Shown piece by piece: positions 48,662 through 64,000 of a stretch of 64,000 nt of DNA. The position numbers and the translations under genes are program-made. Numbering within the stretch: position 1 is the first letter of the stretch; the number at the start of each line of letters is the position of its first letter. The notes below the pieces were generated by a model. The model had not been told where the DNA came from. It did not search any database and saw nothing but the letters and a program-made list of their open reading frames with translations. The DNA comes from Allomuricauda sp. (GTDB taxonomy: Bacteria; Bacteroidota; Bacteroidia; Flavobacteriales; Flavobacteriaceae): contig NZ_JACESV010000002.1 of assembly GCF_013911645.1 (NCBI RefSeq), positions 62,001 to 126,000 of the forward strand, in the 5' to 3' direction.

Positions 48662-48734
<73 letters not shown>

Positions 48735-48740
48735 CTTAGA

Positions 48741-48779: not shown

Positions 48780-48840
48780 CTTGGTTTTATAGGGTGTTGC
48801 ACAGGGTGTTTTTAAATGTAAAACCTGTAATTCTTGAGCA

Positions 48841-49773
48841 TTACTTTAAGTCTTCCAAATCCTTACCCAACCTATCAATTTGTTTTAATGCATCTGAAAT
48901 TTCTGCTTTTACGGCTTTGAATTTCTTTTTCAAATCTTCTAAATCATTCTCCCTTTCAACATTTTCCTTTTTTAAAATGGAAATTTCATTTAAAATTATC
49001 CTACGCTTGTGCTTCTGTATTTCACTCCAAAGGTATTTTTTATAGCTATTTATGTGTTTCTTATAAGATCCATCATTTAAGTAAACCCAATTTTTGCTAT
49101 TATCAATAAGCAACCATTCCTTTAAGTCGGAGAGATTAAATTTAAACTTAGTAAACCTTATAAATTCCATAAGACTTATGGACAAAGTTGGAATATTTGT
49201 TGTCTTTATTTTTTCTTTTTTATCGTCTTTTATAGCATTTGAATAATATGGTTCAATAAAAAGCATTTTGTTTCTCAAATGAGCAACTACATCAACTCTT
49301 ATATCTCCTTTAGGGGTTTTTATTGTCCTTTCAATTTCAACATTATCAATTTTAACTTTTTTAACCTCAGTCAAATTTTTCTTTAATCCTATAGTGAATT
49401 CACGCTGTTGATTTAAGGGTATATTAGAATCAAGAAGCCCATACTGCATTTGCAGAAAATTCCGTAAATGCTCTTCGGGCAAATCCTTAATTAACAGTTC
49501 AGGAAGCTCGATTTCAGTTATCGTTTTAAACATCTCTTTAACCACCTTATGTATATAGGATTCAAAAGCTCCCGAACATTCACGGTCTCCGTAATGTTTA
49601 AAATGAGGTGTTTGATGATTTATTACTGCTACAAATCTTGAACTACATTCAGGGCAAACTACAAAATCTCTATTTTTCTCGGTAATATGACTTAAATCAA
49701 CCAGTTCCTTACCAAGTGAATCAAATGCTATTGGGTATTTTACCACCCTTTTTTTGGAAGGTTTATTACGCAT
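48841..49773 (-). CDS. CoiA-like protein with C-terminal coiled coil
   Basis: 310 residues from the ATG at 49773. The N-terminus resembles CoiA: a Cys pair in FVVCPECSSRFVAV followed by HFKHYGD and a second Cys, a possible zinc site. The middle has RVDVVAHLRNKMLFIEPYY, which resembles the D ... E-x-x core of PD-(D/E)xK-like nucleases but lacks the usual Lys. The last ~60 residues are a strongly charged coiled coil (ENVERENDLEDLKKKFKAV). CoiA proteins act in competence; such nuclease-like island genes may also act in defence. AT-rich codon use differs from the flanking core genes. Confidence 0.6.
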   Translation of the reverse strand: MRNKPSKKRVVKYPIAFDSLGKELVDLSHITEKNRDFVVCPECSSRFVAVINHQTPHFKHYGDRECSGAFESYIHKVVKEMFKTITEIELPELLIKDLPEEHLRNFLQMQYGLLDSNIPLNQQREFTIGLKKNLTEVKKVKIDNVEIERTIKTPKGDIRVDVVAHLRNKMLFIEPYYSNAIKDDKKEKIKTTNIPTLSISLMEFIRFTKFKFNLSDLKEWLLIDNSKNWVYLNDGSYKKHINSYKKYLWSEIQKHKRRIILNEISILKKENVERENDLEDLKKKFKAVKAEISDALKQIDRLGKDLEDLK

Positions 49774-50008
49774 CAAAAGATAATAATGGTTTGCAATGAA
49801 ATTATTTAAAATTCTGAGGTTTCAAAAATCTAAATCAATCTATTAGGTTTGATAGGGGGGTGGGAAGTTTAGTGTTTGCATAACTAGAGGGGCAGTAACG
49901 GACGTATATGATAAGGGGGAGAGCCCTAAAATTGCGATTATGCAATGCGTGCGTGTAGGGCGAAAATTCGGAAATAAACTATTTGTAAATGTGGGGTAAA
50001 ATTTTGGT
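49774..50008. other. Non-coding stretch with a structured G-rich segment
   Basis: No gene is seen. From about 49852 to 49965 the plus strand is G-rich and can fold: GCCCTA (49923-49928) pairs with TAGGGC (49956-49961), enclosing TTGC-GATTAT-GCAA. Upstream is TAACTAGAGGGGCAG. The contrast with the AT-rich surroundings suggests a conserved RNA or DNA site. Confidence 0.45.
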
Positions 50009-50248
50009 TTATTCGGGTAGGTCGAGAAATTCCTTTACATCCACATCCAAGACCTTTGCGATTTTGTAAAGATTCAGAACATTTGTTCCCATTTCTCCCC
50101 TTTCAACACGAGATACAAGATTACCATGGACTTTGGCATGGAAGACCAGTTCTTGCTGGGTCATATTTTGGCTTTTTCTTATCTCACGAACACGATCCCC
50201 TAATTTCTTCAGGAATTTTTGCTCGTCTTCGGATAGATTTTTTGCCAT
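50009..50248 (-). CDS. XRE family HTH regulator
   Basis: 79 residues, essentially one Cro/C1-type domain: VREIRKSQNMTQQELVFHAK, then GNLVSRVERGE and LNLYKIAKVLDVDVKEFLDL. It is divergent to the row of small exported proteins starting at 50363 and may control them or the island's own transfer genes. Confidence 0.88.
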   Translation of the reverse strand: MAKNLSEDEQKFLKKLGDRVREIRKSQNMTQQELVFHAKVHGNLVSRVERGEMGTNVLNLYKIAKVLDVDVKEFLDLPE

Positions 50249-50362
50249 ATCCGAATTTGCAGCAATAGGTTCATCAATAAAAACACTTTAAAGTACAATT
50301 TTGGACAATAATTACCGATTCTCCCTGTTATATGTAGGAATCAAACTATAAAAATTAAAAAC

Positions 50363-50818
50363 ATGAACCCTAACCAGACACCTATTCAAATTGCAAAACC
50401 TTGTTTACTTGCATTCCTGTTGCTAGTTTTATCCTGTTCCGAATCCGATGACACCAATAACCCCGAAGAAACACCCAACCCACTAATCGGCACTTGGAAA
50501 ACCTATTATACCCAATTGACAACCTACGAAAACGGAGAAAAGCAAGAAGGGGAAAAGGAATACTTTGACGATACTGAATACAGTACCCTTGAATTCAACG
50601 AAGATGGTACCGTGATTGAGATAGACTACTATAACTCCGAGGTAACAGAGGTTGAAGAAGTGCCTTATGAAATGGTATCGGATACGCTCTACATACATTG
50701 GGCAAACAATGAAACCGAGACCACCAAATTTTCAATGACCAATGATGAACTGCATTTGCTATCCATCGATGAAGTCGAATCCAATGAGGAATACATCGAG
50801 GTTTATAAAAAGCAATGA
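50363..50818 (+). CDS. Lipocalin-like lipoprotein
   Basis: 151 residues. The signal ends in a lipobox (LLAFLLLVLSCSES). The mature part shows LIGTWKTYYTQLTTYENG, an Asp/Glu-rich middle and LEFNEDGTVIEIDYY, a pattern of the Bacteroidota lipocalin-like family (small beta-barrels of unknown ligand). Its last codons overlap the next gene start (ATGA), so the exported-protein row begins here. Confidence 0.75.
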   Translation: MNPNQTPIQIAKPCLLAFLLLVLSCSESDDTNNPEETPNPLIGTWKTYYTQLTTYENGEKQEGEKEYFDDTEYSTLEFNEDGTVIEIDYYNSEVTEVEEVPYEMVSDTLYIHWANNETETTKFSMTNDELHLLSIDEVESNEEYIEVYKKQ

Positions 50819-51174
50819 AACTAATTCCCATAACCCTAATCTTTCTATCCCTTTTCACAGCAACAATCACTAATGCACAATCAGTTAGCTGTCAAGATGC
50901 CTATGATTATGTTGTGAAAAACCACGATCATCGAGATTCTACAAGTTGTTTTGGTTCATCCATGTTAACCAAAGTTGAATATTATCAACTGGACGGACAG
51001 GGGTATGTTGTAGCCTACATTAAACAAAATGATTATGACATTACAGGCAGACCATACCTATTTTGCAATATTTCAAAGCAACGGTGGAACACCTTTAAAA
51101 TTGAAGGAGCGTATTATTCATGGGGCAAAAAATTCCATGAGTATATTATCGATAATAAGTGTAACTGTTATTAA
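50815..51174 (+). CDS. Exported protein with KTSC-like domain
   Basis: 119 residues with a signal peptide (LIFLSLFTATITNAQ). The mature part has SSMLTKVEYY, a beta-strand with an aromatic, YLFCNISKQRWNTFK and SWGKKFHEYI, which matches the spacing of KTSC domains, proposed to bind nucleic acids or peptides. There are four Cys residues, so disulphides are possible. It overlaps the upstream gene by four bases. The family call is tentative. Confidence 0.55.
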   Translation: MKLIPITLIFLSLFTATITNAQSVSCQDAYDYVVKNHDHRDSTSCFGSSMLTKVEYYQLDGQGYVVAYIKQNDYDITGRPYLFCNISKQRWNTFKIEGAYYSWGKKFHEYIIDNKCNCY

Positions 51175-51192
51175 AACCTAAAAACTGACGTC

Positions 51193-51555
51193 ATGAGGGC
51201 AATTTCCATACTATACGCCTTATTCTTCTTCTCAATTACTACAAACGCACAAATAGAAGATAAAACAATATATGATTTGACATTGGCTATCGATGCTCTT
51301 GACTACACCCCCCAAAAGAGACTAGAGGGTTTTCAAGGGAAAGAATTGAAAAAGGCTCTATATTCAATTATTGACGATTCATTGTTGAAGCAGCTAAATA
51401 TTGACGGGTGGTATTTATGTAGCCAAGACAAAAGGAAAGGGTATGAGGTTTGGAATTTGTACTATGACAGGATTGATTGGGAAACCTATGCCAAATATTG
51501 TAAAGAAATTAACATTCTTCTTGAAATTGATGGCCTAATCCCGCAACCTAAATGA
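51193..51555 (+). CDS. Small exported protein, unknown
   Basis: 120 residues with a signal peptide (SILYALFFFSITTNAQ). The mature part is largely helical (FQGKELKKALYSIIDDSLLKQL) with a WYLCSQ stretch. No family is recognised. It lies 18 bases after the preceding gene in the same row. Confidence 0.65.
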   Translation: MRAISILYALFFFSITTNAQIEDKTIYDLTLAIDALDYTPQKRLEGFQGKELKKALYSIIDDSLLKQLNIDGWYLCSQDKRKGYEVWNLYYDRIDWETYAKYCKEINILLEIDGLIPQPK

Positions 51556-51615
51556 CTCCTATGAAACTTTTATCAATAGATATAATTTCAAAAAATTAAT
51601 TCTAAAATTAAAATC

Positions 51616-52056
51616 ATGAAGCCAATACTCACATTATTTCTAATATCACTAGCTACAATCACTTATGGTCAAACCCTTATCGCCACCACTGAGGATGGTA
51701 GGAGAGTTGTACTTAATGAAAACAAAACTTGGTCATTTATCGATTCGGCACCAAAGGCTAATTTAACTTCAAGCAACGAATTTCCAGATTGTAATCTTCC
51801 AAATGATTTTCAAGAACCAGAGGGAAATAGGAAAATTCAAGGGACGTTGAAAAGAGTAGATGCAACCGCTATGGATTTAAAAAAGCATGTTGCCGTTGAC
51901 AATGACTGTTCAATAGATGATATAAAAATCACCAGTATATCTGAACAAAAAGGAAATGGAAATTATGTATTATGTGTAAATGGCAAGGAAATGAGGTATA
52001 GACGTACTGGAAGTGTTTTTCATAGACAGGGAGTAAGTCCAATAGGTAAATACTAA
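51616..52056 (+). CDS. Exported protein, DUF3157-like start
   Basis: 146 residues with a signal peptide (LTLFLISLATITYGQ). The mature start TLIATTEDGRRVVLNENKTW resembles the DGxxVxLxxDGTW pattern of small exported Bacteroidota proteins. Two short Cys-containing segments (FPDCNLP and NDCSID) follow, and the C-terminus is basic. Function unknown; fourth gene of the exported row. Confidence 0.65.
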   Translation: MKPILTLFLISLATITYGQTLIATTEDGRRVVLNENKTWSFIDSAPKANLTSSNEFPDCNLPNDFQEPEGNRKIQGTLKRVDATAMDLKKHVAVDNDCSIDDIKITSISEQKGNGNYVLCVNGKEMRYRRTGSVFHRQGVSPIGKY

Positions 52057-52097
52057 ATGAACCTGACAGTTACGGTCAAGTCTGACACTCAAAAAAT

Positions 52098-52292
52098 ATG
52101 AAAGCCCTAGCGATAAAAATACTCCCAACACCCATCTTTTTTATTCAATCAACCTTAGTATTTGGACAAGGCCAAGGAGCATATCACGATGCAATAATGG
52201 AAGAAAAAAATGGGTCTGGCGGAGGCATTATAACGGGTCTTCTGATAATCATTGCTATTCTGTATTTTACATCGGACAAAAATCGTAAATAA
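52098..52292 (+). CDS. Very small membrane protein, unknown
   Basis: 64 residues. A signal-like segment (TPIFFIQSTLVFGQ) and a second hydrophobic helix (IITGLLIIIAILYF) are separated by a Gly-rich loop, with a basic tail. It ends the row of exported proteins. The short length lowers certainty. Confidence 0.5.
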   Translation: MKALAIKILPTPIFFIQSTLVFGQGQGAYHDAIMEEKNGSGGGIITGLLIIIAILYFTSDKNRK

Positions 52293-52296
52293 AGTA

Positions 52297-52330
52297 AAAG
52301 CCATCCTTTGCAGGGAAAAGGCATTTTTAC
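52297..52330 (+). terminator. Weak terminator-like hairpin
   Basis: GCCATCCT-TTGC-AGGGAAAAGGC followed by ATTTTT can form an imperfect stem just after the last small gene. Confidence 0.35.
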
Positions 52331-52965
52331 ACATAGTCTTATATCCTGAAAAGTTGCCCAAGTTTAAGTATTTATCGATTTCTCCTTGAACTTTTGAATT
52401 ATATAGGCCAAATCAAAACCGCAATAACTTACAATAGGGGACATATAAAAAAAGGCCTTAATAATAGTCCTTTGTTAGGGAGAACGGTACAGACACTTTT
52501 TCTTAATTAATTTTGAAAGTCAAAAACCTACAAAAAGTATATCCGTGCGTAAGAGATTAAAAATAATTTTGGATCCATTGGGGAGGGATTTTCCCATTTT
52601 GAGCAAATCAAGGGTTATCAAGTGGTTTTGACCATGAACCCAGTCAATTTTAAAATTTCACAATACCTACAAAAAGACTTAATATACCAACCAAGGTTTT
52701 ACTCATCAGAAAACAATGTAATTAATTATATAACAACAAAATAGATGTGATATTTTTTTATAAAAACAAAAATGACATCGAACGAAAAAATCATACCCAC
52801 AGACAGGAATCACATGCTAATTTATGGGGCTTGAAGATGGATCCTCACACAATTGACCAAATTAGGGTGAGAAATAGATGATAGTATTTCAACAATTTGC
52901 TACATCTGGGGCAGATTTTCAATTAATAATTAAAAAGTTCATTTTTTTGACCTCCAAAGCATTGA
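52331..52965. other. AT-rich non-coding stretch with a repeated 12-mer
   Basis: No gene is supported over about 635 bases. ACCTACAAAAAG occurs twice in the same orientation (52526-52537 and 52665-52676). The stretch lies downstream of the putative Rep gene and could hold island replication or transfer sites. Confidence 0.4.
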
Positions 52966-53892
52966 TTAGGCTACTTTTTGACCACAATCAGCATTACAAT
53001 TTATTAAGTGGGCAAATTTCTCCCTAAGCAGTTTCCCGATGGCTTCTTTGGTGTTGAAAATCCCCATCTTATTCCCATAGTTCTCAAAATCCCTAATATG
53101 TCGCTGATATACCTTGTATGAGACTTCATCTTTCAGGACTTTCCAATGGTTAGGATTGTAATATGCCTGCACCCATTCTTTATTTTCAGGGGTTTTAAGC
53201 CCTTTTTTCAATTCGTTTGAATCAACTATCATTAGTTCGTCAAACTGCTCCAAAAGAAAAGCAAACAACCCGTAATAAGCTTCTTTGACCATTAAATCGG
53301 ATAAGTTCTCAATCCCTAAACTGTTCAGCTTCCTTTTATCCGTAATTTTGACCTCAATCCTTAATATATGGTCATCCAGCCCGAACTGTTTGGACTTATT
53401 ATATAGCTTGAAAGAATAGGAATACTTTTTAAATTCCTTATAATCGCCCTTTCCCTTAAAATTTTCGTGCCTGGTATGGGCATTAAAACCATACATCAGC
53501 AGGTTATCATTGATAAAGATTTCAGGGTCATATCCCAGAGATACATTCATACCAAATTCAAGATTGGTAATCTTAGTCTCGTTGGGATTCAAATAAAACT
53601 TATTACAAAGATTCTCAATGGCCTCCTTTGCCTGACAAAAAGAAAAATCGTTATGGTTATGTTCTTCCCCAAGGACATCCATATTATGGTATTTATGCAA
53701 ACTGCCCCTTATATAGCTGGAAGCTTTATTGATTCTGAGTTCTAAATTCTTGTAACGTGCCTTTTTAGGGTACTCGAACATTTCCCCTGTCGAGCGGTCA
53801 TATTCAGAAATTAAATCAACTGGTTTCTTGGTTTCAATCTGGTAATCAAACCGATTTTTGTCCAAAGGATATACTTTAATGTTATCTATCAT
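52966..53892 (-). CDS. Putative replication initiation protein (phage G2P/plasmid Rep-like)
   Basis: 308 residues. The order of features recalls replication proteins of filamentous-phage gene II type and small Bacteroidota elements: NLELRINKASSYIRGSL, then TNLEFGMNVSL, then YSFKLYNKSKQFG and ILRIEVKITDKRKLN. I do not see a clear HUH motif, so the assignment rests on overall pattern. It is coupled to the excisionase-like gene upstream (ATGA overlap at 53889-53892). It could also be a mobilisation protein. Confidence 0.5.
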   Translation of the reverse strand: MIDNIKVYPLDKNRFDYQIETKKPVDLISEYDRSTGEMFEYPKKARYKNLELRINKASSYIRGSLHKYHNMDVLGEEHNHNDFSFCQAKEAIENLCNKFYLNPNETKITNLEFGMNVSLGYDPEIFINDNLLMYGFNAHTRHENFKGKGDYKEFKKYSYSFKLYNKSKQFGLDDHILRIEVKITDKRKLNSLGIENLSDLMVKEAYYGLFAFLLEQFDELMIVDSNELKKGLKTPENKEWVQAYYNPNHWKVLKDEVSYKVYQRHIRDFENYGNKMGIFNTKEAIGKLLREKFAHLINCNADCGQKVA

Positions 53893-54074
53893 AGCAAAGC
53901 GTTTTTAGGGTTGGACAACTCGATTTGACTTAATACATCCTCCAATAGATAAAGAGGTTTTCTCCCAATCTTATGGGAAGGTTTCAAAATCCCTTTCTTT
54001 TTGTGGTTGTGTAATGTCACCAATGAAATGCCGAGCATTTCAGCGACTTCTTGTCGAGATAAAAATTTCTTCAT
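53889..54074 (-). CDS. Excisionase-like helix-turn-helix protein
   Basis: 61 residues from the ATG at 54074. FLSRQEVAEMLGISLVTLHNHKKKGILKP is a MerR/Xis-type winged helix-turn-helix, followed by KIGRKPLYLLEDV. Such proteins direct the integrase towards excision or act as regulators in Bacteroidota islands. It overlaps the Rep-like gene by four bases. Confidence 0.82.
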   Translation of the reverse strand: MKKFLSRQEVAEMLGISLVTLHNHKKKGILKPSHKIGRKPLYLLEDVLSQIELSNPKNALL

Positions 54075-54269
54075 CGTCAATGTATTTGATTAAACTTCAA
54101 TTGAGTGAACCTAACATTTGTGCGGTTCATTGCGACAAAGAAAGAATGGAATATCGAGGCATTAAACAACTATAGGCTAATGCCCCTAGCCTACCAAATC
54201 GGGTAACAATAATATAGGGCAACTCTGTGCTTTAAAGAATTTTAATGGTCAGAGTGGTCAGAGTTGGAT
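54075..54269. other. Non-coding stretch with inverted and tandem repeats
   Basis: TAGGCTA (54173-54179) and TAGCCTA (54187-54193) form a perfect 7-bp inverted repeat with a 7-base loop. GCCCCTA (54182-54188) can alternatively pair with TAGGGC (54215-54220). A 9-bp tandem repeat GGTCAGAGT occurs at 54247-54264. This looks like a binding site or transfer origin. Confidence 0.45.
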
Positions 54270-55313
54270 TCATCGTCCTTCAAGTAGATTATTCAGCATC
54301 CTATCCAACTTTTGTCTTGAACTCTCTGATATGGTTTCAGAGTTTTTAGAGAAAGTTTTGCCCATGACCCTACGACCTTTCAAGCTAAAGCAATTGGACG
54401 CATCAGTCCATTTTTTTTGATAACCTGATTCTACTATAATATTTTCGGCAAGTAATTTTTTTACCAAGTACTTCAAATCTGGTACAGTTGCAATCCATTC
54501 AACTTGCGTTATAATTCTTTGAGTTTGGTCATTTTTAAAAAGATTTTGAAATGTATCGCTTCTAGTTCTTTCTGCAATATACTCGTGTTCAATCAAGGAA
54601 CTGCAAAAGATGCTTGCTCTACGTGGTGTTATTCTCAACCTATCCCCCAAAATGAGGCCATTTCCATAATGGCCGTTGGGTTTTTCCTCTTTTGATCCTA
54701 TACTATCAAATTTCGCCTTAAAATTTTTAAATTTTTTAGGGTAGGTATCACCGTATGCACTCTCCAAATTATTGGACAATGAATGGTAACTAGAAATGAA
54801 TTGATTTGAAATTGTGGTCTGTATAGCGTTGAGTTCAATTTGCAAATTCATTTCTGTAAGCTCATCAATACTTTTACATATTTTCTCCAATTGATTCTGC
54901 AAAAGTATATCAACCTGAATGTTTGTAGTTGCCTGAAACAACAGGCTTTGTAATTCTTGAAGGTATTTGGCTTTGAGAAGTTCAGTAAATTCCTGAAACG
55001 AATCTTTGAGTATGCCTATATCAATTGATTTTATCAGGGCCGAGTAATCAACATCAATATCTAAATTACTTAACTCTACGTTTGGCATACCCTGTAATTC
55101 TGCCATCGTAAGGCAATCATAGGTTATGTCAAACTCATCACTATAGCTAAAATGATACAGTACATTTTGGAAAACGGCATCTGACAAATCACCAAAAGGT
55201 AGTGAATGGGTTGACATGATACCAAATTGCGAATAATCATAAGGTTTGAACGTTTCCTCAATTGATAGGAGGTCAGTCTTGAAATAAAGTTTATCAAAGA
55301 TTGAAATATCCAC
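54270..55313 (-). CDS. Island protein of unknown function next to the integrase
   Basis: About 347 residues from a GTG at 55313 that overlaps the integrase end by 20 bases. The same frame runs back to 55472 inside the integrase gene, and an ATG at 55217 is the other option. The middle is long helical (NLQIELNAIQTTISNQFI). The end has a compact domain (IITQVEWIATVPDLKYLVKKLL ... KWTDASNCFSLKGRRVMGK) whose pattern recalls RteC-type proteins of Bacteroidota elements. That resemblance is weak. It is probably co-transcribed with the integrase. Confidence 0.65.
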   Translation of the reverse strand: MDISIFDKLYFKTDLLSIEETFKPYDYSQFGIMSTHSLPFGDLSDAVFQNVLYHFSYSDEFDITYDCLTMAELQGMPNVELSNLDIDVDYSALIKSIDIGILKDSFQEFTELLKAKYLQELQSLLFQATTNIQVDILLQNQLEKICKSIDELTEMNLQIELNAIQTTISNQFISSYHSLSNNLESAYGDTYPKKFKNFKAKFDSIGSKEEKPNGHYGNGLILGDRLRITPRRASIFCSSLIEHEYIAERTRSDTFQNLFKNDQTQRIITQVEWIATVPDLKYLVKKLLAENIIVESGYQKKWTDASNCFSLKGRRVMGKTFSKNSETISESSRQKLDRMLNNLLEGR

Positions 55314-56577
55314 TTTTGGCAATGTTAACGGCTTTTTGTTCCTTTTCAATACGAATGTACTTATAAAACTCTCGTTCCGTAGAATGCCCACTAAATTGCA
55401 TAATATCATAAGTTGGCATTCCCCTTTTGTACATATTGGTACAAAACGAACGTCTGGCCGTATGTGTTCCAATCAAATCATATTTGGGGGTACTTTCAAC
55501 GATTTCCTTCCCTCCTTGAGTGCGGGTATGGGTAATCATTTCGTTTATTCCTGCCTTTTTACCTGCTTTCTTTATATACTCGTTAATGTCCTGTTCATTC
55601 ATCTTTTTAGGTGGTTCGCCATTGTTTTTTGGCTTGCTTAAAATTTGTTGTATTTCAGTGGTTATTGGACATAATACTTCTTTCTTGGTTTTCTTTTGTT
55701 TAATCTGAAAAAATGGTATCCCATCCCTTACAACCATATTTCTTTTGGTTAGTCCATTATAATCACTAACTCTTTGCCCCGTATAACACCCAATTAAAAA
55801 TATATCCCTAGCCTTATCAAGATTTGGAAATGCAGACAAGTCATGGTTGGCCAGTTTTGTCAGTTCTCCATCATCGAGATATATTGCTGTTGTTTGCTCT
55901 TTCGGGGCTTTAAAATCGCTTCTTGTAAAGACCATGTTCTTGTTAATACCGTCTTGTGTTGCACTCCGAAGAAAAACCTTAAGATTTTTAATATGCTTAC
56001 CAATGGTATTCAATGACTTATCATCTTCCTCCAAGAAAAGAACAAAATCATCATAAAATTTGAGGTCAATGCTGTCAAAATCAAGATTTGGGTTGAATCT
56101 TTCAAGCAATTTCTTTGTTTGCTTGTAGGAACGCAGAGTAACATCTGCAATTTTTCCCTTTTTATGGTCTAAGAATTTATCCATGTATTTGTACAACCCT
56201 ATTGGCTCATCAATATCTTTGGGTTGACTTTTACCCGTAACTTGGTCTAGCTTTTGTTTCAAATGCTTATTGGTAACGGGAGTACGGTTTGCATCCAAAG
56301 TGCTTATTTCCTTATACAACTCGGTTTCAAGCATATTTAGATAATCGTTTACATGGCCCCCATTCAAAATATGGGCTTTGTTGCGAATACGCTGTTTTTT
56401 CAAATCCCAATCTAAAAAGCAAGAATAATACCCCGTACTATATTTGAACCGTTGGCCTCTTCCATAATTAAAGTGAAGCATTATCAAAGATTCCTTTTTA
56501 GGCTCTTTTTTAAGGTTGGCAATACTTTCTTTAAATGAAAAACGGATTGTACCCTTTGAACGCTGAACTGCTGGCAT
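55294..56577 (-). CDS. Tyrosine recombinase (island integrase)
   Basis: 427 residues. An Arm-binding N-terminus, a SAM-like core-binding domain and the catalytic domain are in order. Catalytic residues are visible: Arg in IGCYTGQRVSDYN, His-x-x-Arg in GTHTARRSFCTN, His in MQFSGHSTEREF and the nucleophile Tyr shortly after (FYKYIRI). It recombines the tRNA-Phe 3' end. Its start is 187 bases from the right repeat, the usual place for such an enzyme. Confidence 0.95.
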   Translation of the reverse strand: MPAVQRSKGTIRFSFKESIANLKKEPKKESLIMLHFNYGRGQRFKYSTGYYSCFLDWDLKKQRIRNKAHILNGGHVNDYLNMLETELYKEISTLDANRTPVTNKHLKQKLDQVTGKSQPKDIDEPIGLYKYMDKFLDHKKGKIADVTLRSYKQTKKLLERFNPNLDFDSIDLKFYDDFVLFLEEDDKSLNTIGKHIKNLKVFLRSATQDGINKNMVFTRSDFKAPKEQTTAIYLDDGELTKLANHDLSAFPNLDKARDIFLIGCYTGQRVSDYNGLTKRNMVVRDGIPFFQIKQKKTKKEVLCPITTEIQQILSKPKNNGEPPKKMNEQDINEYIKKAGKKAGINEMITHTRTQGGKEIVESTPKYDLIGTHTARRSFCTNMYKRGMPTYDIMQFSGHSTEREFYKYIRIEKEQKAVNIAKSGYFNL

Positions 56578-56763
56578 TTTTTATTTTAAAAGTATAAATA
56601 AATCTCGTAAAGGGTGCTACAAAGGGTGCTATTTTCGATTAATGAATCAAAATTCTGATTAATGAAAATTAATCTTGATTAATTGTTGAAGCATTGTTTT
56701 TATTGACAATTTAAGAGCATTTTAATGAATCGAAGTTAATTCCAATTAAAATATAATATGGTA
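56578..56763. other. AT-rich stretch between integrase and right attachment repeat
   Basis: No gene is seen. Several copies of TTAATGAATCAAAATT-like and TGATTAATG motifs (56638-56685) cluster here; they would suit integrase arm sites or the integrase promoter. Confidence 0.4.
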
Positions 56764-56776
56764 CTGGAGGTACCAC
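56764..56776 (+). repeat. Right attachment repeat
   Basis: CTGGAGGTACCAC, identical to the tRNA-Phe 3' end at 48723-48735. The bases before it do not continue the tRNA, as expected for a duplicated target remnant. Confidence 0.88.
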
Positions 56777-56782
56777 AAAAAA

Positions 56783-56810
56783 GCCCGCGAACTATGTTTG
56801 CGGGTTTTTT
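56783..56810 (+). terminator. Displaced native tRNA-Phe terminator
   Basis: CCCGCGAAC-TAT-GTTTGCGGG followed by six T residues. It is separated from the tRNA by the island; before integration it would have followed the tRNA directly. Confidence 0.85.
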
Positions 56811-56936
56811 GTTTTTTGAACAAGCGGTGAAACTGCTTCGACATTGCACAGTCAAAGCTACCCTACAATGAGAATCATATGAGATTTGGCTTAAACGAAT
56901 TTCATTTTAACTAAGTTCTTTGATTGGATGTGTTTA

Positions 56937-58061
56937 TTATTTAAATAAATTGATATATTCTTCGAACCAATATTGTTTCCCTCGTTTAGCACCTGTTATT
57001 TCCTTTAGAATACCAAGTTGTTCTAATTCATGCACTAGTTTATATGCTGATGGTAAGGAAAGATCTGTAAGATCTGCCACCTTTTGGACATTGATAAGCG
57101 GTCGAAGATAGAGTTTACTCACTACAGCTCTAGCATTGCTCGTTCTTGCACCAAGTCCTTGAATTTTCAAATCAACCTCTTTTTGCAACTTCATAATATT
57201 GTTAAAAGTATCGATACTTCCCTTTGCGGTTTCTATAACACCCACCAGAAAAAACTTAAACCATTGTTTAATGTCATTGGCAGTTCTAACTTTCATCAAA
57301 TTGTCATAATACAATTGCCTATTTCTTTCAAAGAAATCAGATAAGTATAAGATTGGTTTTTTCAAAATACCTTTCTCAACTAAATAAAGAGTAATCAAGA
57401 GGCGCCCAACTCGACCGTTGCCATCTAAAAAGGGATGTATTGTTTCGAACTGGTAGTGAATAAGCGCAATTTTCAATAGATGTGGCAGCCTTATTTCAGC
57501 GTTGTGAGAAAACTTCTCCAAATCCCCCATTAACCGAGGGACTTCAGTATGCGGAGGAGGAATGAATGTTGCATCGGCAATTGAGGCACCACCGATCCAA
57601 TTTTGACTAGTTCTGAATTGTCCTGGTATTTTATGTTTCCCTCGAACTCCTTGTAGAAGAACTTTATGGGCTAATCTTATTAATCTCGAAGATAACGGTA
57701 ATTCATCCAGTGATTCAATAGCTTTATTCAATGCTTTAATATAGTTCTGAACTTCTTCCCAATCGTCCCGTTCTTCTTCAGCTATCTCTTCTTTATCCTG
57801 TAGCGCTTCTTCTATATTGGTTTTTGTGCCTTCTATTTTACTTGATTTTGTTGCCTCCTTTAGAATATGCATAGAAATGAAAAGATCTATATTAGGCGTA
57901 TGTTCGGAGTACATATCCAATCTTCCTAGCTGTCTGTCCGCTTGGCTTAACAACTCTATGACCTCCATGTCGTCTAGAGTCCAATTTCGATTGATCTCTT
58001 CGGGAATAAAACTATTGAAGGTTCCCTGACTGACGTAATTCCCTGCTTTAAAGTTCTGCAT
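56937..58061 (-). CDS. Fic family protein (class II, autoinhibited)
   Basis: 374 residues. The Fic core HPFLDGNGRVGR lies at 209-220, with the His that activates the target hydroxyl. An inhibitory helix motif, SSKIEG (73-78), lies N-terminal, which marks class II Fic enzymes that block their own ATP site. The C-terminus is a winged helix (KVADLTDLSLPSAYKLVHELEQL). It probably transfers AMP to a protein target or regulates transcription. It lies just outside the right repeat. Confidence 0.92.
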   Translation of the reverse strand: MQNFKAGNYVSQGTFNSFIPEEINRNWTLDDMEVIELLSQADRQLGRLDMYSEHTPNIDLFISMHILKEATKSSKIEGTKTNIEEALQDKEEIAEEERDDWEEVQNYIKALNKAIESLDELPLSSRLIRLAHKVLLQGVRGKHKIPGQFRTSQNWIGGASIADATFIPPPHTEVPRLMGDLEKFSHNAEIRLPHLLKIALIHYQFETIHPFLDGNGRVGRLLITLYLVEKGILKKPILYLSDFFERNRQLYYDNLMKVRTANDIKQWFKFFLVGVIETAKGSIDTFNNIMKLQKEVDLKIQGLGARTSNARAVVSKLYLRPLINVQKVADLTDLSLPSAYKLVHELEQLGILKEITGAKRGKQYWFEEYINLFK

Positions 58062-58618
58062 TATATATTAACTAGCGCAGCTCCTAAATTAAGAAAAAAA
58101 TAAAAAACTTAAATAACGAATGGGTAATTTTAAGTTTATAGGGAAATTCTTTAAAACTGACCGTTCTTAATAAACATACTCCAATGGTCTAGCCTATAAT
58201 TTTATTAGACTAGTAGTCGACGAGCAATACTGCGGACGGCGTGCGGGGTGGTTCTTTGTATGTACCACAAAAAGAAGCTGTCTAAAAAGCAACAAAAGTT
58301 TGAATTTGTCAGGTTGAGCACAGTCGAAACCCATTGATTATCAAATTACTTTAGGTTCTCGACTGCGCTCGAACTGACAGATAACGGGCTTTTTAGAATT
58401 CACCCTCTTTTGTTTTTTGGCTACTTCGAACCTATAGTTCCTCCTTCTGAGCACCTTTCTTGCTGTTTATGAACCCTTCTATTACGAGTTTATATATGTC
58501 ACTTTTCATTTAATCACTAACACTCGCAATTCCAAGTGTATTCATTTTGTCCAGAGTGAAGTCGAAGGGTAGTCGAATCCACCGTAATTACAGTTATAAA
58601 TTGTCGTGCGTAGTGTTT
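58062..58618. other. Intergenic stretch with REP-like elements
   Basis: No gene is supported in this 557-base gap. It contains the long inverted repeat described at 58307-58379, a degenerate third copy near 58546-58580 (AGTGAAGTCGAAGGGTAGTC), and GTACCACAAAAA (58262-58273), which matches 56770-56781 beside the right attachment repeat. Confidence 0.55.
58307..58379. repeat. REP-like inverted repeat
   Basis: Arms of about 25 bases (TGTCAGGTTGAGCACAGTCG ... and TCGACTGCGCTCGAACTGACA) are imperfect inverted copies around an AT-rich centre. The core TCGACTGCGCTCGA equals that at 30119-30132. Confidence 0.75.
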
Positions 58619-59212
58619 TTAATCACGGAATAATGCAATATCAATAATAAGTTGCTTTTTATTTATTTCTAATTTTTTTGATAACAATTCAATATTATAG
58701 TTATCCTTTAAAGGAATTATTTGAAGTCCATAAATATTCAAATCAAATCCGCTAACAGGGATTTCATTCTTATCTTGTTTCAATTTTATTGGCCGAAATA
58801 ATACTTGACTTAAAATCAACTGTATATATTTAACCCAATATTCTTCAAAATCTATTTTGCTAACAATTACCTTATTGTTAAGATTTTTCCATAGAATTTC
58901 TTTTATTTCAACGATTAATTTTTTTAATGATATTGCTTCATTAATTTTTTTTATTAAATCATTTTTGGAATGGAAGTTTTGAAATGAATTGGTAATGTTT
59001 TGAATTATTGTTGATGGTAAATTTGTTCGGTCAAGTTCCTTGTGTAAAAGCCAATTACAGTATAACGTTGTTATTGGATATTTAGATTTACAATCATCAA
59101 TTTCTATTAAAATTCTTATGGATTGCATAATATAGCAAATATTGGGAATTGATAATTTTTCCCACACTAAAGATTGTTCGATTTGCTTTATAACATTTTC
59201 TCGTAAATTCAT
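58619..59212 (-). CDS. Hypothetical protein, AT-rich
   Basis: 197 residues with no signal or membrane helix. It is rich in Ile, Leu, Lys and Asn (LIKKINEAISLKKLIVEIK), likely all helical. Codon use is strongly A/T-biased compared with the core genes, pointing to horizontal origin. I recognise no family; it may be a component of an accessory or defence locus. Confidence 0.6.
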   Translation of the reverse strand: MNLRENVIKQIEQSLVWEKLSIPNICYIMQSIRILIEIDDCKSKYPITTLYCNWLLHKELDRTNLPSTIIQNITNSFQNFHSKNDLIKKINEAISLKKLIVEIKEILWKNLNNKVIVSKIDFEEYWVKYIQLILSQVLFRPIKLKQDKNEIPVSGFDLNIYGLQIIPLKDNYNIELLSKKLEINKKQLIIDIALFRD

Positions 59213-59348
59213 TTAGTATTCAAATCTTGCGTTTAAGTTAGAACATTACGCATAACTTGCTTATATGGATGTAAAATACACCTCTACACACCCAAATTAA
59301 GAATAAAGTTGATATTATTTTTTACTTCGATGAAAAGATGATGGTATC

Positions 59349-59582
59349 CTATTCATCAAACCCTTCAGCAAAAAATTCGGTGATGCTTAAATCAAAATAG
59401 GTAGAAATTCTTTTGATGGTGCTGAATTTTGGGTCCCATTTCCCAGTTTCTATCCGTCCAAAATGGATTCCTGTATCGTTGTAAGCATCTTCTTGGGTAA
59501 GGTTTCGGGCTTCTCTCAACCCTTTAATCCGGTTGGCTAAATCCTTCAAAAAATCAACATTTTGGTCGTCGTTGTCAATCAT
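59349..59582 (-). CDS. XRE family HTH regulator
   Basis: 77 residues, one Cro/C1-type domain: IKGLREARNLTQEDAYNDTGI, then GRIETGKWDPKFSTIKRISTYFDLSITEFF. It is divergent to the 59679 gene with a 96-base gap that holds a palindrome, the usual layout for an autoregulator. Confidence 0.88.
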   Translation of the reverse strand: MIDNDDQNVDFLKDLANRIKGLREARNLTQEDAYNDTGIHFGRIETGKWDPKFSTIKRISTYFDLSITEFFAEGFDE

Positions 59583-59617
59583 ACGACAGCAATGTCAAAA
59601 TTTTGCAAGTCGAAATT

Positions 59618-59649
59618 AATGACTTAAACGTCATTTTTGTTTAATTTTG
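59618..59649 (+). promoter_or_regulatory. Palindrome and -7 element between XRE gene and 59679 gene
   Basis: AATGAC-TTAAAC-GTCATT (59618-59635) is an 18-base palindrome that would suit an XRE dimer. TAATTTTG (59642-59649) matches TAnnTTTG and lies 30 bases before the ATG at 59679. Confidence 0.5.
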
Positions 59650-59678
59650 GGCAATCCCATTCACTAAAATGACCTATT

Positions 59679-60125
59679 ATGCCAACACTTCCCATTTCAT
59701 CCACTTTTACCAACTTCCTCCATCAAAATTCCCATGCACCCCTGCACATCACCTTTGCAGCGCTGGAAATCATAAACCACCAAAACGGGCAGTCCCTTAA
59801 CCGGGTGCAACGGCCCCAGAGCCGTATCTTCCTCCAAAAAATGCCACAAACGGGCCTGGCCAAGATGACCGTGCCGGACAATCTGGTGTTTTGTTTTTCC
59901 TTCCAGTTCCATATACCCAATGCTGGGGAATTCCACCATGGCGAAATGCTGTGCCTGCCCCGGCCCTTGGATTGTGGTAGGCTGTTCGTGGATGACGAAA
60001 AACTGCTGCTATCCTTTAGGATAGATGCCCCGGACCCCACCCTACGGGTGGAGGTGACCCATGTGTACCAAGGTATCCTCCGCCTAGAGCATTTTTGCAC
60101 ACCGCTGTGTGGGCAAACCCACTAA
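59679..60125 (+). CDS. Uncharacterised protein divergent to the XRE gene
   Basis: 148 residues. Codons on this strand are rich in third-position G/C and give a balanced composition (LHITFAALEIINHQNGQSL, VPDNLVFCFSFQFHIPNAGEF, PTLRVEVTHVYQGILRLEHF). A promoter-like element and palindrome lie upstream. Two open frames on the other strand over the same bases have no such signals and look like shadows. No family is recognised; base composition differs clearly from the AT-rich gene before it. Confidence 0.5.
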   Translation: MPTLPISSTFTNFLHQNSHAPLHITFAALEIINHQNGQSLNRVQRPQSRIFLQKMPQTGLAKMTVPDNLVFCFSFQFHIPNAGEFHHGEMLCLPRPLDCGRLFVDDEKLLLSFRIDAPDPTLRVEVTHVYQGILRLEHFCTPLCGQTH

Positions 60126-60162
60126 TTTGCCGGGTTCTTTGTTTTATGCGAGCAAAGTAACT

Positions 60163-60369
60163 TTAATCCACTACCTGTGCGCCCTTTTTACTGTTCTTGA
60201 ATTCACTTGGGCTTAAACCATATCTTTCCTTAAAAATCTTGGAAAAATAACTCCGGCTGGTAAATCCAATGGAGTATACCACCTCGGAAATGTTCATCTC
60301 GGTGGTGGTGTAACCTTCCCTAAAAAGGGTAAGGCCATGGGGCGAGAAAAAGACAAAATGCGAGCGCAA
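60163..60369 (-). pseudogene. AraC-type regulator, 3' remnant
   Basis: The last ~45 codons encode the second half of an AraC HTH (NISEVVYSIGFTSRSYFSKIFKERYGLSPSEF). The N-terminal residues read through do not fit the family. No first HTH or sensor domain is found upstream. It is probably the tail of a hybrid two-component or AraC gene cut by rearrangement. Confidence 0.75.
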
Positions 60370-60581
60370 AGATAAATTTACAGCAATATTGGGAACTTAA
60401 GACGAGTTCTATACCTACAATTATCAATTTGTCAAGTTAGAAGGTATAAATACCAAGAGTTATTATATCGAAGAACATCGACTTTATATTAAAGAATATC
60501 GAAAAAAACAAAAATAACTCTTGAAGGTAGAATTAACTGAGTTTATTTGTTCATTACCACATCGAACATTAAATAAAATAA
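60370..60581. other. AT-rich leader of the exopolysaccharide-like genes
   Basis: No gene is seen. TATATCGAAGAACATCGAC and GAATATCGAAAA repeat an ATCGAA motif near 60465-60505, which could be a regulator site; no clear TAnnTTTG is present. Confidence 0.35.
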
Positions 60582-61886
60582 ATGCTTCCGATTCGAATAA
60601 TAAGCAGGTATTTTTTATGGCTATGGTTCCTCCTTATTTGCATATGCCTTTCCTGTAACTCCGGCCATAGAAAAGAAGATGAAAAAGGAGTAAAGCTTTT
60701 AAAGACTTCCGAGGGCTTTGGTCTATTTAGAAATGGCAAGGAATTCTATATCAAAGGAGCTGCGGGCAACGGACATTTAAAAGAATTGGCAAAGGCTGGG
60801 GCAAATACCCTGCGCGTATATGACACAATAGGCTTAAAGAACAAATTGGATTTGGCCGATAGTTTGGGCTTGGCCCTAGTTGTTGATTTACCCTTGATCA
60901 TATCTAAAGGACAAATAAAGACAACCACAGTAGAAGCTGTTATAAGCACTGTGGAAAATTATAAAGACCATCCAGCACTTTTGTATTGGGTCTTGGGCAA
61001 CGAGGTCTATTCTCCAAGATTTAAACCAGGGATTCTTGATGAGGAATTCAATCAACTAGTCGAAAAAATACGCCAAATTGACCCCGATCACCCTATAACA
61101 ACCACGGTAACGGCAGGAGCAGTTGAACATATGATTTTGATCAATTGGCGATGCCCCGGTATCGATTTTATATCGATAAATATATTTGGTCGCTTAAATC
61201 AAATCGATTTTTTGAAAAAGCTTTCGTTCGTTTGGCAAGGCCCTTATGTCATTTCAGAATGGGGCAATAATGGACCTTGGGAGTCGAATAGTACCACATG
61301 GGGCGCCCCTTTGGAACAGACGAGCACCAAAAAAGCTGTACAGATCAAACAGAGGTACCAAGATTATATTGCCACCCTTGATGATGGGAGATGTTTGGGC
61401 AGTTTGGCCTTTTATTGGGGAACAAAACTTGAGACTACCGAAACGTGGTTCAGTTTGTTTCCCGAAAATGAAAAAAAAACACAGGCAATATTTGAACTGG
61501 AAAATGTTTGGACCAATAAGGACCGGAAATATACAGGACCGGAAATTGACCATATTTTAATCAATGGGCAAAGGGAATGGAACAGTATCATCAGCTTGCC
61601 AGGGCAACCGATAACCGGTCAGGTGGTTTTAGTTGGCAACGATCAAGATGATGCCTTTTTCTGGGAAGTGAAACCTGAGGCCTGGTCTACACCATCAAAA
61701 GTATACCTTAAGGATAAGGACCGACCAAAAGAAGTGGTTCAGATTGAGGAACAAAACAATGTCCAGATAACTTTTAATGCTCCTTTAAAGGAAGGTCCGT
61801 ATAGATTACATTATACAGTCGAAGGAAAGGATGGCTATGTGGCCACTGCGAATGTTCCATTTTATGTATTAGAGGAAGAGGAATGA
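60582..61886 (+). CDS. Clan-A TIM-barrel glycoside hydrolase-like lipoprotein
   Basis: 434 residues. The signal ends at Cys25 (LICICLSCNS). Residues about 45-300 look like a GH2/GH5-type TIM barrel: EFYIKGAAGNGHLKELAKAG, TLRVYDT, catalytic acid Glu141 in WVLGNEVYSP, nucleophile Glu226 in YVISEWGNNG. The last 100 residues form a beta-sandwich-like part (PITGQVVLVGNDQDDAFFWEV). It probably cleaves or remodels a polysaccharide on the cell surface. Its stop overlaps the next gene start (ATGA at 61883-61886), tying it to the GT2 protein. Confidence 0.78.
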   Translation: MLPIRIISRYFLWLWFLLICICLSCNSGHRKEDEKGVKLLKTSEGFGLFRNGKEFYIKGAAGNGHLKELAKAGANTLRVYDTIGLKNKLDLADSLGLALVVDLPLIISKGQIKTTTVEAVISTVENYKDHPALLYWVLGNEVYSPRFKPGILDEEFNQLVEKIRQIDPDHPITTTVTAGAVEHMILINWRCPGIDFISINIFGRLNQIDFLKKLSFVWQGPYVISEWGNNGPWESNSTTWGAPLEQTSTKKAVQIKQRYQDYIATLDDGRCLGSLAFYWGTKLETTETWFSLFPENEKKTQAIFELENVWTNKDRKYTGPEIDHILINGQREWNSIISLPGQPITGQVVLVGNDQDDAFFWEVKPEAWSTPSKVYLKDKDRPKEVVQIEEQNNVQITFNAPLKEGPYRLHYTVEGKDGYVATANVPFYVLEEEE

Positions 61887-64000
61887 ACGATGTAATGCTC
61901 AAGACCCCAAAACGACGGGAATTCCTGATTCTTCGAACTATGATATGCATAGGGCTGTTCAGTATATTCCAGTTTTTCTATTTTTTTTTCAACCCAGAAT
62001 ATAGGGGTGCTCCCTTTTTGTATTGGATGTTATGCGTTATAATGGTCTATGGTGCCCTGAAAAATATATATCTGTGGTACCATTACAGCAGCATGTCGGC
62101 GCCGAAAAAGCCAGTAGGGGAATTTCGGCCCACAGTCGATATATTAACCACTTATTTCCCTGGGGAACCTTATGAAATGACCTTGGGAACCTTGGAGGCC
62201 ATACAGAAAATAACATACCCGCACACAACCTATTTGTGTGATGAGGCCAATGATCTTTTTCTGAAAAAAGAATGTGAGCGATTAGGCGTAGTGCACGTGA
62301 CCCGCAACAATCGAAAGGATGCCAAAGCAGGGAACATAAATAATGCCCTAAAAATTGCCACAGGGGAAATTGCCTTGGTCTTGGACCCAGACCATGTTCC
62401 GAAACCTGATTTTTTAGATCGAGTGGTGCCCTATTTCGCCGATGAAAAGATTGGGTTTGTTCAGGTGGTTCAAAGCTATTATAACAAGGTGCATTCACTG
62501 GTAGCAAGGGGAGCGGCCGAGCAGACTTTTCATTTTTATGGCCCCATGATGATGACCATGAACACCTATGGTACGGCACAGGCCATAGGGGCCAACTGTA
62601 CATTTAGAAGATCGGCACTCGATAGCATTGGAGGGCATGCGCCAGGACTGGCAGAAGACATGCATACATCAATGCTATTGCATGCTAAAGGATGGAAATC
62701 CGTGTATGTTCCATCACTCTTGGCCAAGGGTATGGCTCCTTTGGACCTTACATCGTATTACAAACAACAGTTAAAATGGTCAAGGGGCGTCTTTGAATTG
62801 TTGTATACGGTCTATCCCAAAATTTTCAAAAACCTGACTACGCGGCAAAAGCTTCATTATGGATTGCTGCCCATGCATTATTTGATCGGCTTTGTCTATC
62901 TATTGAGCTTTGCGATTCCAGTTGTTGCATTGTTTACCTCAAAAATGCCTTGGACCGGAAACTTTTTGAACTTTTTAATTGTTGGTGCACCTGTTTTTAT
63001 GAGCAGCTTTTTCATTCGCATTTTTGTTCAAAAATGGGTGATAGAGAGAAGTGAAAGAGGGTTTCATGTCATTGGGGGGCTATTACAGATCATCACATGG
63101 TGGGTGTTCATTCTTGGGGTTGTATATACCTTTGTTCGAAAAAAAGTCCCTTATCTACCAACACCCAAACAGGAGGAAGGGACCAACCTGTTGATCACAA
63201 TCCCTAGCCTTGTTGTCGCTATCGTGTCAATTACGGCCATTTGGTATGGGCTGAATACCAATATTACCCCCTTCAGTATTGCTATGATGGGGTTTGCTGC
63301 CATAAACACACTCTTTATGCTGTTCAGCCTGTATTTGGCGACCAGGGTGACAAATAAGAACCATATATTGAGGAGTACATTGGAGCGAAATGCCATAGAC
63401 TTCCTTGTAGGCGTCAAGCAAAAAGTCATCCATATATCAGATTGGACTTTTCGCTTTACAAGAAACATTGTCCTTCCCATGGCTTTTTTGACTTTGATAG
63501 CTTCCAACTTGGCCATTAATAAACTCCACAAAAACCAATGGGAGAACATCGAGGCCCCGGTTGTAGAAACCCAAGACTATCTGTACAGGGGAATTTTTTA
63601 TCCTACTGGGGAAAATGGTTTGACGGACTTAAAGGCCATGGACAGTCTTGAAAAAAATTCGGACATCAAGTTTGATATGGTCTCCTATTATATTGCATGG
63701 GGAGATTCTGTGCAACAAGGAATATCATCAAACGATATAGCGATTTTAAAGGAAAGAGGGGCCAGCATAATGATTACTTGGGAGCCATGGCTGAATGCCA
63801 TGCCAGCAACTGATTCCCTTGATCGGACAACGGCACAGAACAAAGGCCTTGCCAGTATTGGCGACGGAAGCTTTGATTCATATATCAAACAATTTGCCAC
63901 ACAGGTCAGAGCATTGGATATCCCTGTTTTTCTACGCTTTGCCCATGAATTTGACAACCCTGCTTATCCATGGTATAGTGATGACAAATATGCGGATAGG
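61883..64000 (+). CDS. GT2 polysaccharide synthase fused to a GH26-like domain (5' part)
   Basis: 706 codons are visible and the gene runs off the right edge. Residues 15-65 hold two membrane helices. Residues 80-310 form a cellulose-synthase-like GT2 domain: DILTTYFPGEP, DPD at 168-170, AED at 257-259 and QQLKW at 295-299 (a QxxRW variant with Lys). Helices follow to about 545. From about 560 a soluble domain begins that resembles GH26: VSYYIAWGDS, ITWEPWLNAM and FLRFAHEFDNPAYPWY with the acid/base Glu689. The active GH part should face the periplasm. A single protein would then make and trim or release a glycan. The nucleophile Glu lies beyond the window. Confidence 0.85.
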   Translation, partial: MNDVMLKTPKRREFLILRTMICIGLFSIFQFFYFFFNPEYRGAPFLYWMLCVIMVYGALKNIYLWYHYSSMSAPKKPVGEFRPTVDILTTYFPGEPYEMTLGTLEAIQKITYPHTTYLCDEANDLFLKKECERLGVVHVTRNNRKDAKAGNINNALKIATGEIALVLDPDHVPKPDFLDRVVPYFADEKIGFVQVVQSYYNKVHSLVARGAAEQTFHFYGPMMMTMNTYGTAQAIGANCTFRRSALDSIGGHAPGLAEDMHTSMLLHAKGWKSVYVPSLLAKGMAPLDLTSYYKQQLKWSRGVFELLYTVYPKIFKNLTTRQKLHYGLLPMHYLIGFVYLLSFAIPVVALFTSKMPWTGNFLNFLIVGAPVFMSSFFIRIFVQKWVIERSERGFHVIGGLLQIITWWVFILGVVYTFVRKKVPYLPTPKQEEGTNLLITIPSLVVAIVSITAIWYGLNTNITPFSIAMMGFAAINTLFMLFSLYLATRVTNKNHILRSTLERNAIDFLVGVKQKVIHISDWTFRFTRNIVLPMAFLTLIASNLAINKLHKNQWENIEAPVVETQDYLYRGIFYPTGENGLTDLKAMDSLEKNSDIKFDMVSYYIAWGDSVQQGISSNDIAILKERGASIMITWEPWLNAMPATDSLDRTTAQNKGLASIGDGSFDSYIKQFATQVRALDIPVFLRFAHEFDNPAYPWYSDDKYADR

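Follow-up and report, generated by a model that had tools for sequence, protein, structure and literature searches.

At the end of a 64,000-nucleotide stretch of Allomuricauda sp. DNA (contig NZ_JACESV010000002.1, positions 62,001 to 126,000 of the forward strand; G000:C2:62001-126000; hereafter 'the window') we find two overlapping genes that, as we read them with reasonable if far from complete confidence, specify an inner-membrane beta-glucan machine, which would make a chain, probably of the beta-1,3/1,4 type, and then cut or re-join it. The downstream gene encodes a 1264-amino-acid (aa) protein in three parts: a glycosyltransferase family 2 (GT2) synthase resembling the cellulose synthase BcsA, a glycoside hydrolase family 26 (GH26) domain and a domain with a GH158-like fold. 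The upstream gene encodes a 434-aa GH158 homologue. A preliminary description of the window had proposed the first two of the three parts in one chain; the third domain (aa about 890-1264) and the GH158 identity of the upstream gene lay beyond its view.

A single gene joins a BcsA-like synthase to two glycosidase-type domains

The open reading frame (ORF) of the synthase-hydrolase begins with an ATG at window position 61883 on the plus strand and runs open through the window edge, with 706 of its 1264 codons inside the window (61883..64000). By extending the gene in its own genome contig, as the preliminary description had advised, we placed its stop at window-equivalent position 65677 (complete gene 61883 to 65677, or L003:3883-7677; 1264 codons plus stop). 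The ATG overlaps the stop codon of the upstream GH158 gene by 4 nt (ATGA; gap -4).

The long frame is real and the fusion is no artefact, since the same three domains are found in 37 entries across Bacteroidota. Locus counts, here and below, refer to fetched loci, the stretches of which differ in length (3.3 kb for L072); the 37 full fusions include one organism's gene twice (L038 and L061), a gene truncated where its contig ends (L072) and one that is interrupted (L080). Frames of 1202 to 1288 aa with identical domain order are seen in 35 of the 37, and these come from genome families f1, f3, f10, f22 and f24 and from Chitinophaga. Such conservation refutes an assembly or annotation accident, to which we attach next to no probability: nothing was found in its support, the interrupted relatives (L080 and the GH158 gene of L051) being possible cases of decay or sequencing error.

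The GT2 catalytic core (aa about 79-320; 62117..62842, plus strand), delimited with TIGR03030, a BcsA profile and Foldseek, is predicted to be cytoplasmic. The processive motifs DPD, AED and QQLKW named in the preliminary description are all present (D168-P-D170, A-E258-D259 within AED 257-259, and Q295-Q-L-K-W299), as is D120, and the set is complete in 35 of the 37 full fusions, the other two being the cut gene L072 and the interrupted gene L080. A Pfam scan of the full synthase ranked GT2 families first (E 7e-22 and 2.9e-21); up to E 1 it matched neither PilZ nor GH17, the core helices being followed by another helix and GH26. Among solved structures BcsA comes closest to the GT2 part, by sequence as well as by fold (5ej1, 166.9 bits by profile; 4p00, Foldseek E 5.6e-25). 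Against TIGR03030 (CelA) the synthase scores 150.7 bits, with the curated cut-off at 699.1, which places it outside this equivalog.

The GH26 domain resembles a lichenase

The GH26 domain spans aa about 566-870, as judged by Pfam, profile and fold, and its in-window part occupies 63578..64000 (plus strand). On the full protein PF02156 scores 36.6 bits (cut-off 20.2); on the in-window part alone, Pfam does not list GH26 at E 0.001. Alignment places the acid/base motif H688-E689 at 63944..63949 and E794, at the nucleophile position, at 64262-64264, beyond the window (both plus strand). The preliminary description, which had read a GH26-like domain with an HE acid/base motif, made its case depend on a GH26 match and on a second catalytic glutamate further downstream, and both are found in the complete protein. 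All 24 aligned GH26 sequences have H688, E689 and E794; over the full fusions the catalytic residues read HEE in 36 and PEE in one, with both glutamates kept in all 37. They line up with the HE and AEF of 2vi0 (CtLic26A), the catalytic residues of which are numbered E109/E222.

A GH26 profile built from 24 relatives (of 26 rows, leaving out L042, which is without GH26, and L061, which is from the same organism as L038) matched CtLic26A ('Endoglucanase H') with 145 bits, followed by 12nx (activity unnamed) with 50; every GH26 chain listed other than CtLic26A scored 50 or less, the best named mannanase being 6hf2 with 44.5. In Foldseek, the lichenase 2vi0 reached a TM-score by target of 0.81, compared to 0.53-0.59 for mannanases among the best 50 rows. 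By similarity, therefore, the domain appears to belong to the same type as the lichenase CtLic26A. A mannan or glucomannan synthase equipped with a mannanase would have been suggested by the many beta-mannanases in GH26, some of which do score here at lower rank; with CtLic26A so far ahead of any named mannanase among the matches listed, we dropped it as first choice and consider it very improbable. Of the 'mannan or glucan' offered in the preliminary description we thus retain the glucan. The Pfam GH26 model (E 0.001) found this gene alone in the genome, which is 99.96% complete.

A third domain with a GH158-like fold and no catalytic pair

The third domain lies wholly beyond the window. As a single sequence it gave no match to solved structures up to E 1, and its sequence profile gave weak matches in the Protein Data Bank (PDB), with GH2-type beta-galactosidases first (best E 7e-5) and GH158 at E 0.088. 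A fold search of the PDB with its model (mean pLDDT 91.3) returned GH158 at all of ranks 1-6, and profile-profile comparison with a GH158 alignment gave a probability of 98.8 and E 1e-16 over 318 columns. The acid/base glutamate is present in none of 40 sequences, 29 having Asp instead (D1002 here); at the nucleophile position, Glu is found in 7 of the 40 (G1098 here); and both catalytic glutamates occur together in none. We could thus rule out an active GH158, the catalytic pair being found in no row. A Gln after strand 8 is kept in 40/40 and is preceded by Trp in 38 and Phe in two; as judged by the profile alignment and the strand order in the model, this NWQ motif follows strand 8 and is not the nucleophile site. 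The domain may be a pseudo-glycosidase that binds glucan. A plasmid collection searched with the third domain of this protein gave no match.

The upstream GH158 homologue is paired with the synthase

The upstream gene (60582..61886, plus strand) encodes a homologue of GH158-family beta-1,3-glucanases with a lipoprotein-type N-terminus (LSC at 23-25), assigned by PDB matches, profile and alignment: among solved structures it matches BuGH158 (6pal) with E 1.8e-48 and 9oro with E 3.4e-45, and its profile scores 300 bits to 9oro. The predicted catalytic residues N140-E141 and E226 are invariant in 24 of 24 aligned sequences and in 40 of 40 complete genes; in L051 the gene is present as two ORFs, which retain their parts of the catalytic set. 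These residues correspond to N136, E137 and E220, the catalytic residues of BuGH158 (PMC7157763).

In 41 of 42 loci, among which one organism counts twice, the synthase has a GH158 gene next to it; the exception, L072, is at a contig end. The GH158 gene lies upstream on the same strand in 39 and is convergent in two; 37 of the 39 are within 60 nt of the synthase gene, and 27 overlap it. The preliminary description, which saw a coupled upstream lipoprotein as a second hydrolase of the same system, had called for a survey of their co-occurrence, and this pairing bears out its view. Among relatives the N-terminus is either of lipoprotein type, as here, or an apparent plain membrane anchor, so we infer that the enzyme is membrane-tethered in either case. 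A GH158 profile search at E 1e-10 found the upstream gene alone in this genome. With a sole GH26 and a sole GH158 in the genome, it does not look as if either belonged to a separate system for food glucans, and both families seem here to be devoted to the synthase.

Predicted membrane topology

The hydropathy profile of the synthase shows eight hydrophobic stretches, including aa 396-414. Channel helices after the GT domain were placed at 334-352, 364-382, 436-454 and 465-483 by hydropathy and alignment with BcsA, and a last membrane helix (aa 528-546; 63464..63520, plus strand; helix 530-554 in the model) leads into the predicted periplasmic part. The stretch at aa 396-435 (63068..63187, plus strand) comprises, on the evidence of the BcsA alignment and the model, a putative interfacial helix (aa 396-414) and the equivalent of the gating loop (VPYLPTPK, aa 422-429): aa 396-414 align with the region just before the FxVTxK gating loop, which reads FAVTAK in BcsA, and the AlphaFold2 model (aa 1-871) has a broken helix here (396-404/406-418). 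The equivalent of aa 396-414 is under the hydropathy threshold in the split relatives L043 and L115, and above it in L044 and L108.

Taking aa 396-414 as interfacial leaves seven membrane helices, one fewer than the eight or so of the preliminary description, and puts GH26 outside the inner membrane; we infer a synthase with its N-terminus and GT domain inside and GH26 outside. The loop charges fit this topology, with eight Lys/Arg in aa 484-527 and none in 455-464.

Fused, split and GH26-less architectures

The fetched loci comprise 37 fusions of GT2, GH26 and the third domain, three of GT2 and the third domain, two of GT2 and GH26, and four split loci with GT2 and GH26 on genes of their own, which are direct neighbours in L108 and L115; in L043 and L044 they lie three genes apart. 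No GH158 gene listed comes from any of the split loci. All four split GH26 proteins carry an N-terminal hydrophobic anchor, and the last helix of the fusion may therefore be the anchor of a once-separate GH26, kept when the genes were joined.

A protein containing TPR repeats, which by our own reading is an outer-membrane barrel, adjoins three of the four split loci; no homologue of it was found in the fetched stretches of the 42 fused loci. These neighbours bear on a different reading, in which the synthase makes an exported exopolysaccharide, GH26 merely edits the chain as BcsZ does in cellulose synthesis, and export proceeds through an unlinked outer-membrane porin. Such export is favoured by the TPR neighbours of the split loci and by an MBOAT acyltransferase with a partner gene in seven of the 42 fused loci, as would be expected for an acylated exported polymer; it is disfavoured by the lack of the TPR homologue from the fused loci and of any MBOAT match from this genome. 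We regard export as rather unlikely, if worth keeping in view.

The MBOAT protein is DltB-like (under the DltB cut-off), and its partner gene encodes 311-332 aa; the pair lies in the fetched stretches of L037, L042, L045, L057, L058, L083 and L085, the family having been tested on L058 and assigned to the others by homology. The L058 partner has no Pfam match. An acylated product is possible in the MBOAT-bearing lineages; as a general feature of the system we ruled acylation out, given the seven of 42 loci and the lack of a match in this genome.

In L043 and L044 the GT2 gene, a nucleotidyltransferase-like gene, two dehydratase/epimerase-like genes and the anchored GH26 gene form one run (named from sequence reading), and the polymer there may contain an unusual sugar. 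At two loci (L082:13383-17608 and L120:8687-12948), a tandem GH26 gene lies beside a gene for an 828-838 aa protein of the sulfatase family (PF00884) that matches phosphoglycerol transferase weakly; the two genes of L082 come after the fusion. Decoration of the glucan by this neighbour is possible; we set it aside as part of the system, since it occurs in one of the 42 fused loci.

The relationships among these forms were examined in quick tree searches with moderate support, from which L061, L072 and L080 were left out. In the GH26 tree, fused domains stand beside those of the split loci L043, L044 and L108 (support 83 and 87); the GH26 of L115 sits on a long branch together with tandem GH26 proteins, and L115, which also has the most distant GT2, may lie outside this set. 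Of the GT2 tree we use the inner groupings, two of the four outgroup rows (L031 and L034) being in the wrong frame and L115 sitting on a very long branch. Here the proteins combining GT2 with the third domain nest among full fusions, which suggests that they arose by later loss of GH26. In five tandem GH26 proteins (L077, L078, L082, L119 and L120), at least one catalytic glutamate is missing from the first copy in the alignment, and the second retains HEE; to judge from the sequences, this synthase is repeatedly accompanied by a mix of active and inactive glycosidase domains.

A model for coupled glucan synthesis and cutting

In our model, the GT2 part would polymerise UDP-glucose on the cytoplasmic side and push the chain through the synthase's own membrane channel, as in BcsA. 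The chain would emerge beside the tethered periplasmic GH26, an endo-acting enzyme of lichenase type that would cut or re-join it as it grows; the third domain, without its catalytic pair, would probably hold or steer the glucan, and the separate membrane-tethered GH158, present in that compartment too, would act on the part rich in beta-1,3 linkages. The likeliest product would be a glucan of controlled length with beta-1,3 and beta-1,4 linkages, as suggested by the combination of a lichenase-type GH26 with a GH158 partner: the GH158 of B. uniformis JCM 13288 is active on both laminarin and lichenin (PMC7553746). Coupling of synthesis to release or length control, which the preliminary description had put forward, is plausible.

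Several points weigh against this model. Firstly, aa 396-414 are hydrophobic enough to cross the membrane, and if they did, GH26 would face the cytoplasm, an arrangement that we consider unlikely; the AlphaFold2 model (aa 1-871) has a pTM of 0.60 and its relative domain placement is unreliable. Secondly, both GT2-GH26 proteins without the third domain have lost GH26 catalytic glutamates (one in L112, both in L113), and three fusions (L042, L077 and L078) have no GH26. No GH26 was found in the fetched 20 kb of L042; in L077 and L078 a separate tandem GH26 gene follows the fusion. With GH26 absent, or without one or both of its glutamates, in these relatives, not every such system depends on cutting by a fused GH26. 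Thirdly, the GT2 sequence does not fix the linkage, product and activity being predicted from sequence, and BuGH158, the enzyme of B. uniformis ATCC 8492, shows high specificity for laminarin and acts poorly on mixed-linkage glucan (PMC7157763), which makes a beta-1,3-rich product possible as well.

The two glycosidases could also act mainly as transglycosylases, cutting the new chain and joining its end to itself or to another chain, so that the beta-glucan becomes cyclic or branched; the GT2-GH17 proteins have been proposed to work in this way. Theirs is the closest architecture known, with cyclisation of beta-1,3-glucan as their proposed role (PMC10237404), and BuGH158 is a retaining enzyme with a covalent intermediate, as in clan GH-A, which permits transfer (PMC7157763). 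The nearest solved relatives of the GH26 domain are, however, named as lichenases, that is, hydrolases, and no sequence feature that we examined separates transfer from hydrolysis. Overall we judge transfer as the main activity to be unlikely.

Returning to a machine that cuts as it synthesises, the product is possibly periplasmic, since no TPR or barrel gene is linked to the fusion. Going further, we tentatively propose, with well below even confidence, a periplasmic-glucan system of Bacteroidota that evolved separately from OpgGH and NdvB, in which the outer part of the synthase would free short beta-1,3/1,4-glucans and a dead glycosidase domain would guide the chain. If the system works as read, a single polypeptide would polymerise, thread and cut a polysaccharide, coupling glucan synthesis to cutting at the channel exit, and it would point to a source of mixed-linkage, lichenan-like glucan in Bacteroidota. 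The fused, split, GH26-less and pseudo-GH26 versions form a natural series for studying how a hydrolase serves its synthase, which is at issue for BcsA and BcsZ as well.

Distribution and genomic setting

Profile surveys covered Bacteroidota. Among 397 genomes of the family, this one included, 23 have a match at E 1e-200 or better; 22 of these span all three domains (in G244 with an internal stop), and one (G113) is without GH26. Three carry at least two copies, copy numbers being lower bounds as at most two candidates were scored per genome. Within the genus, two of 71 genomes carry the fusion, this one included. In 395 genomes from across the phylum, the third domain was matched at E 1e-10 in 10, and a GH26 matching this profile at E 1e-20 in 21. 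A search with exact peptide patterns of one protein (at least seven loci) named Muricauda, Maribacter, Robertkochia, Galbibacter, Pelagihabitans and two Chitinophaga as carriers.

The genome has a second, distant GT2 (G000:C2:150408-151454, in L002; 29% identity, 499 aa frame). As the query at E 1e-20 matches 290 of the 397 family genomes, mostly with frames of about 490 to 570 aa among the matches listed, this looks like a common GT2 of the family.

The operon lies downstream of a tRNA-Phe gene (window 48662-48735), from which the GH158 gene starts 11.8 kb away; in Muricauda sp. NBRC 101325 (L035), its distance from the matching tRNA-Phe block is about 0.4 kb. Between tRNA-Phe and GH158 the window encodes a phage-type integrase (55294-56577, minus strand) and a Fic protein (56937-58061, minus strand), and this intervening DNA (within 48662-60582) has the look of an element that inserted at the tRNA. 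The interval separating the tRNA-Phe block from the following conserved block (G000:C2:110735-132311) measures 21.6 kb in this genome. G804, the closest relative tested, has 6.2 kb, and 11 more genomes of the genus that carry both blocks on a single contig have 1.8 to 10.6 kb; the fusion is missing from all 12. The spot is variable, which may explain why two of 71 genomes in the genus carry the fusion. The operon is flanked by an imperfect direct duplication (window 59238-60309 and L003:8603-9663) with blocks of 70, 300 and 142 nt at 86, 80 and 92% identity, the upstream copy of which contains, by translation, a piece from the end of a gene for an AraC-like regulator; the duplication suggests how the operon was inserted. 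A scan of L003 with Rfam at gathering thresholds gave no match.

Comparison with known systems

The BcsA cellulose synthase can be aligned with our protein through the GT2 core, the channel and the gating-loop region, to about aa 494. It differs in that our protein has no PilZ match, falls far under the TIGR03030 cut-off and carries its hydrolase in the same chain, whereas BcsZ, the cellulase of the BcsA system, is a separate protein. Osmoregulated periplasmic glucans, though of a different, beta-1,2 linkage, offer another parallel. There, OpgH works with OpgG and OpgD (GH186; PMC10514313), likewise for a periplasmic glucan and with dedicated proteins from a glycoside hydrolase family, but as separate proteins rather than as a fusion. 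Of bacterial GT2 synthases with the product suspected here, RiGT2 has been shown, and BgsA suggested, to make (1,3;1,4)-beta-glucan (PMC10374906); we liken them to our protein by description, not by sequence. Unlike our protein, RiGT2 has a C-terminal PilZ domain, and the available text of that paper does not mention a glycoside hydrolase.

Among solved glycosidases, CtLic26A (PDB 2vi0, 2bvd and 2cit) is the nearest relative of the GH26 domain and BuGH158 (6pal) a near relative of the GH158 partner, the catalytic glutamates being conserved in both cases; unlike the proteins studied here, both are stand-alone degradative enzymes. In an exopolysaccharide cluster of Actinoplanes, the GH26 WpsE is a protein of its own (PMC13390465). 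We recognised no description of a GT2-GH26 fusion among the matches listed from the open-access literature.

The closest parallel is the GT2-GH17 'Orphan'/NdvB family of pseudomonads and its relatives (Glt1, Glt3 and Glt7; PMC10237404, PMC11005184), in which a BcsA-like GT2 membrane synthase likewise shares its chain with a periplasmic TIM-barrel glycosidase; the latter has been proposed to cut the beta-glucan as it emerges and to re-join it. The preliminary description, in stating that synthase and hydrolase are usually separate proteins, overlooked these fusions; its proposal of GT2 and GH26 in one chain is upheld. In GT2-GH17 the glycosidase is N-terminal, whereas GH26 is C-terminal to the synthase here, and a third, GH158-like domain and a GH158 partner, both found here, are not mentioned for GT2-GH17 in the available text of the two papers. 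A synthase-glycosidase fusion is thus already known, and the novelty of the present system is in its glycosidase family and its domain order, both of which differ from those of GT2-GH17.

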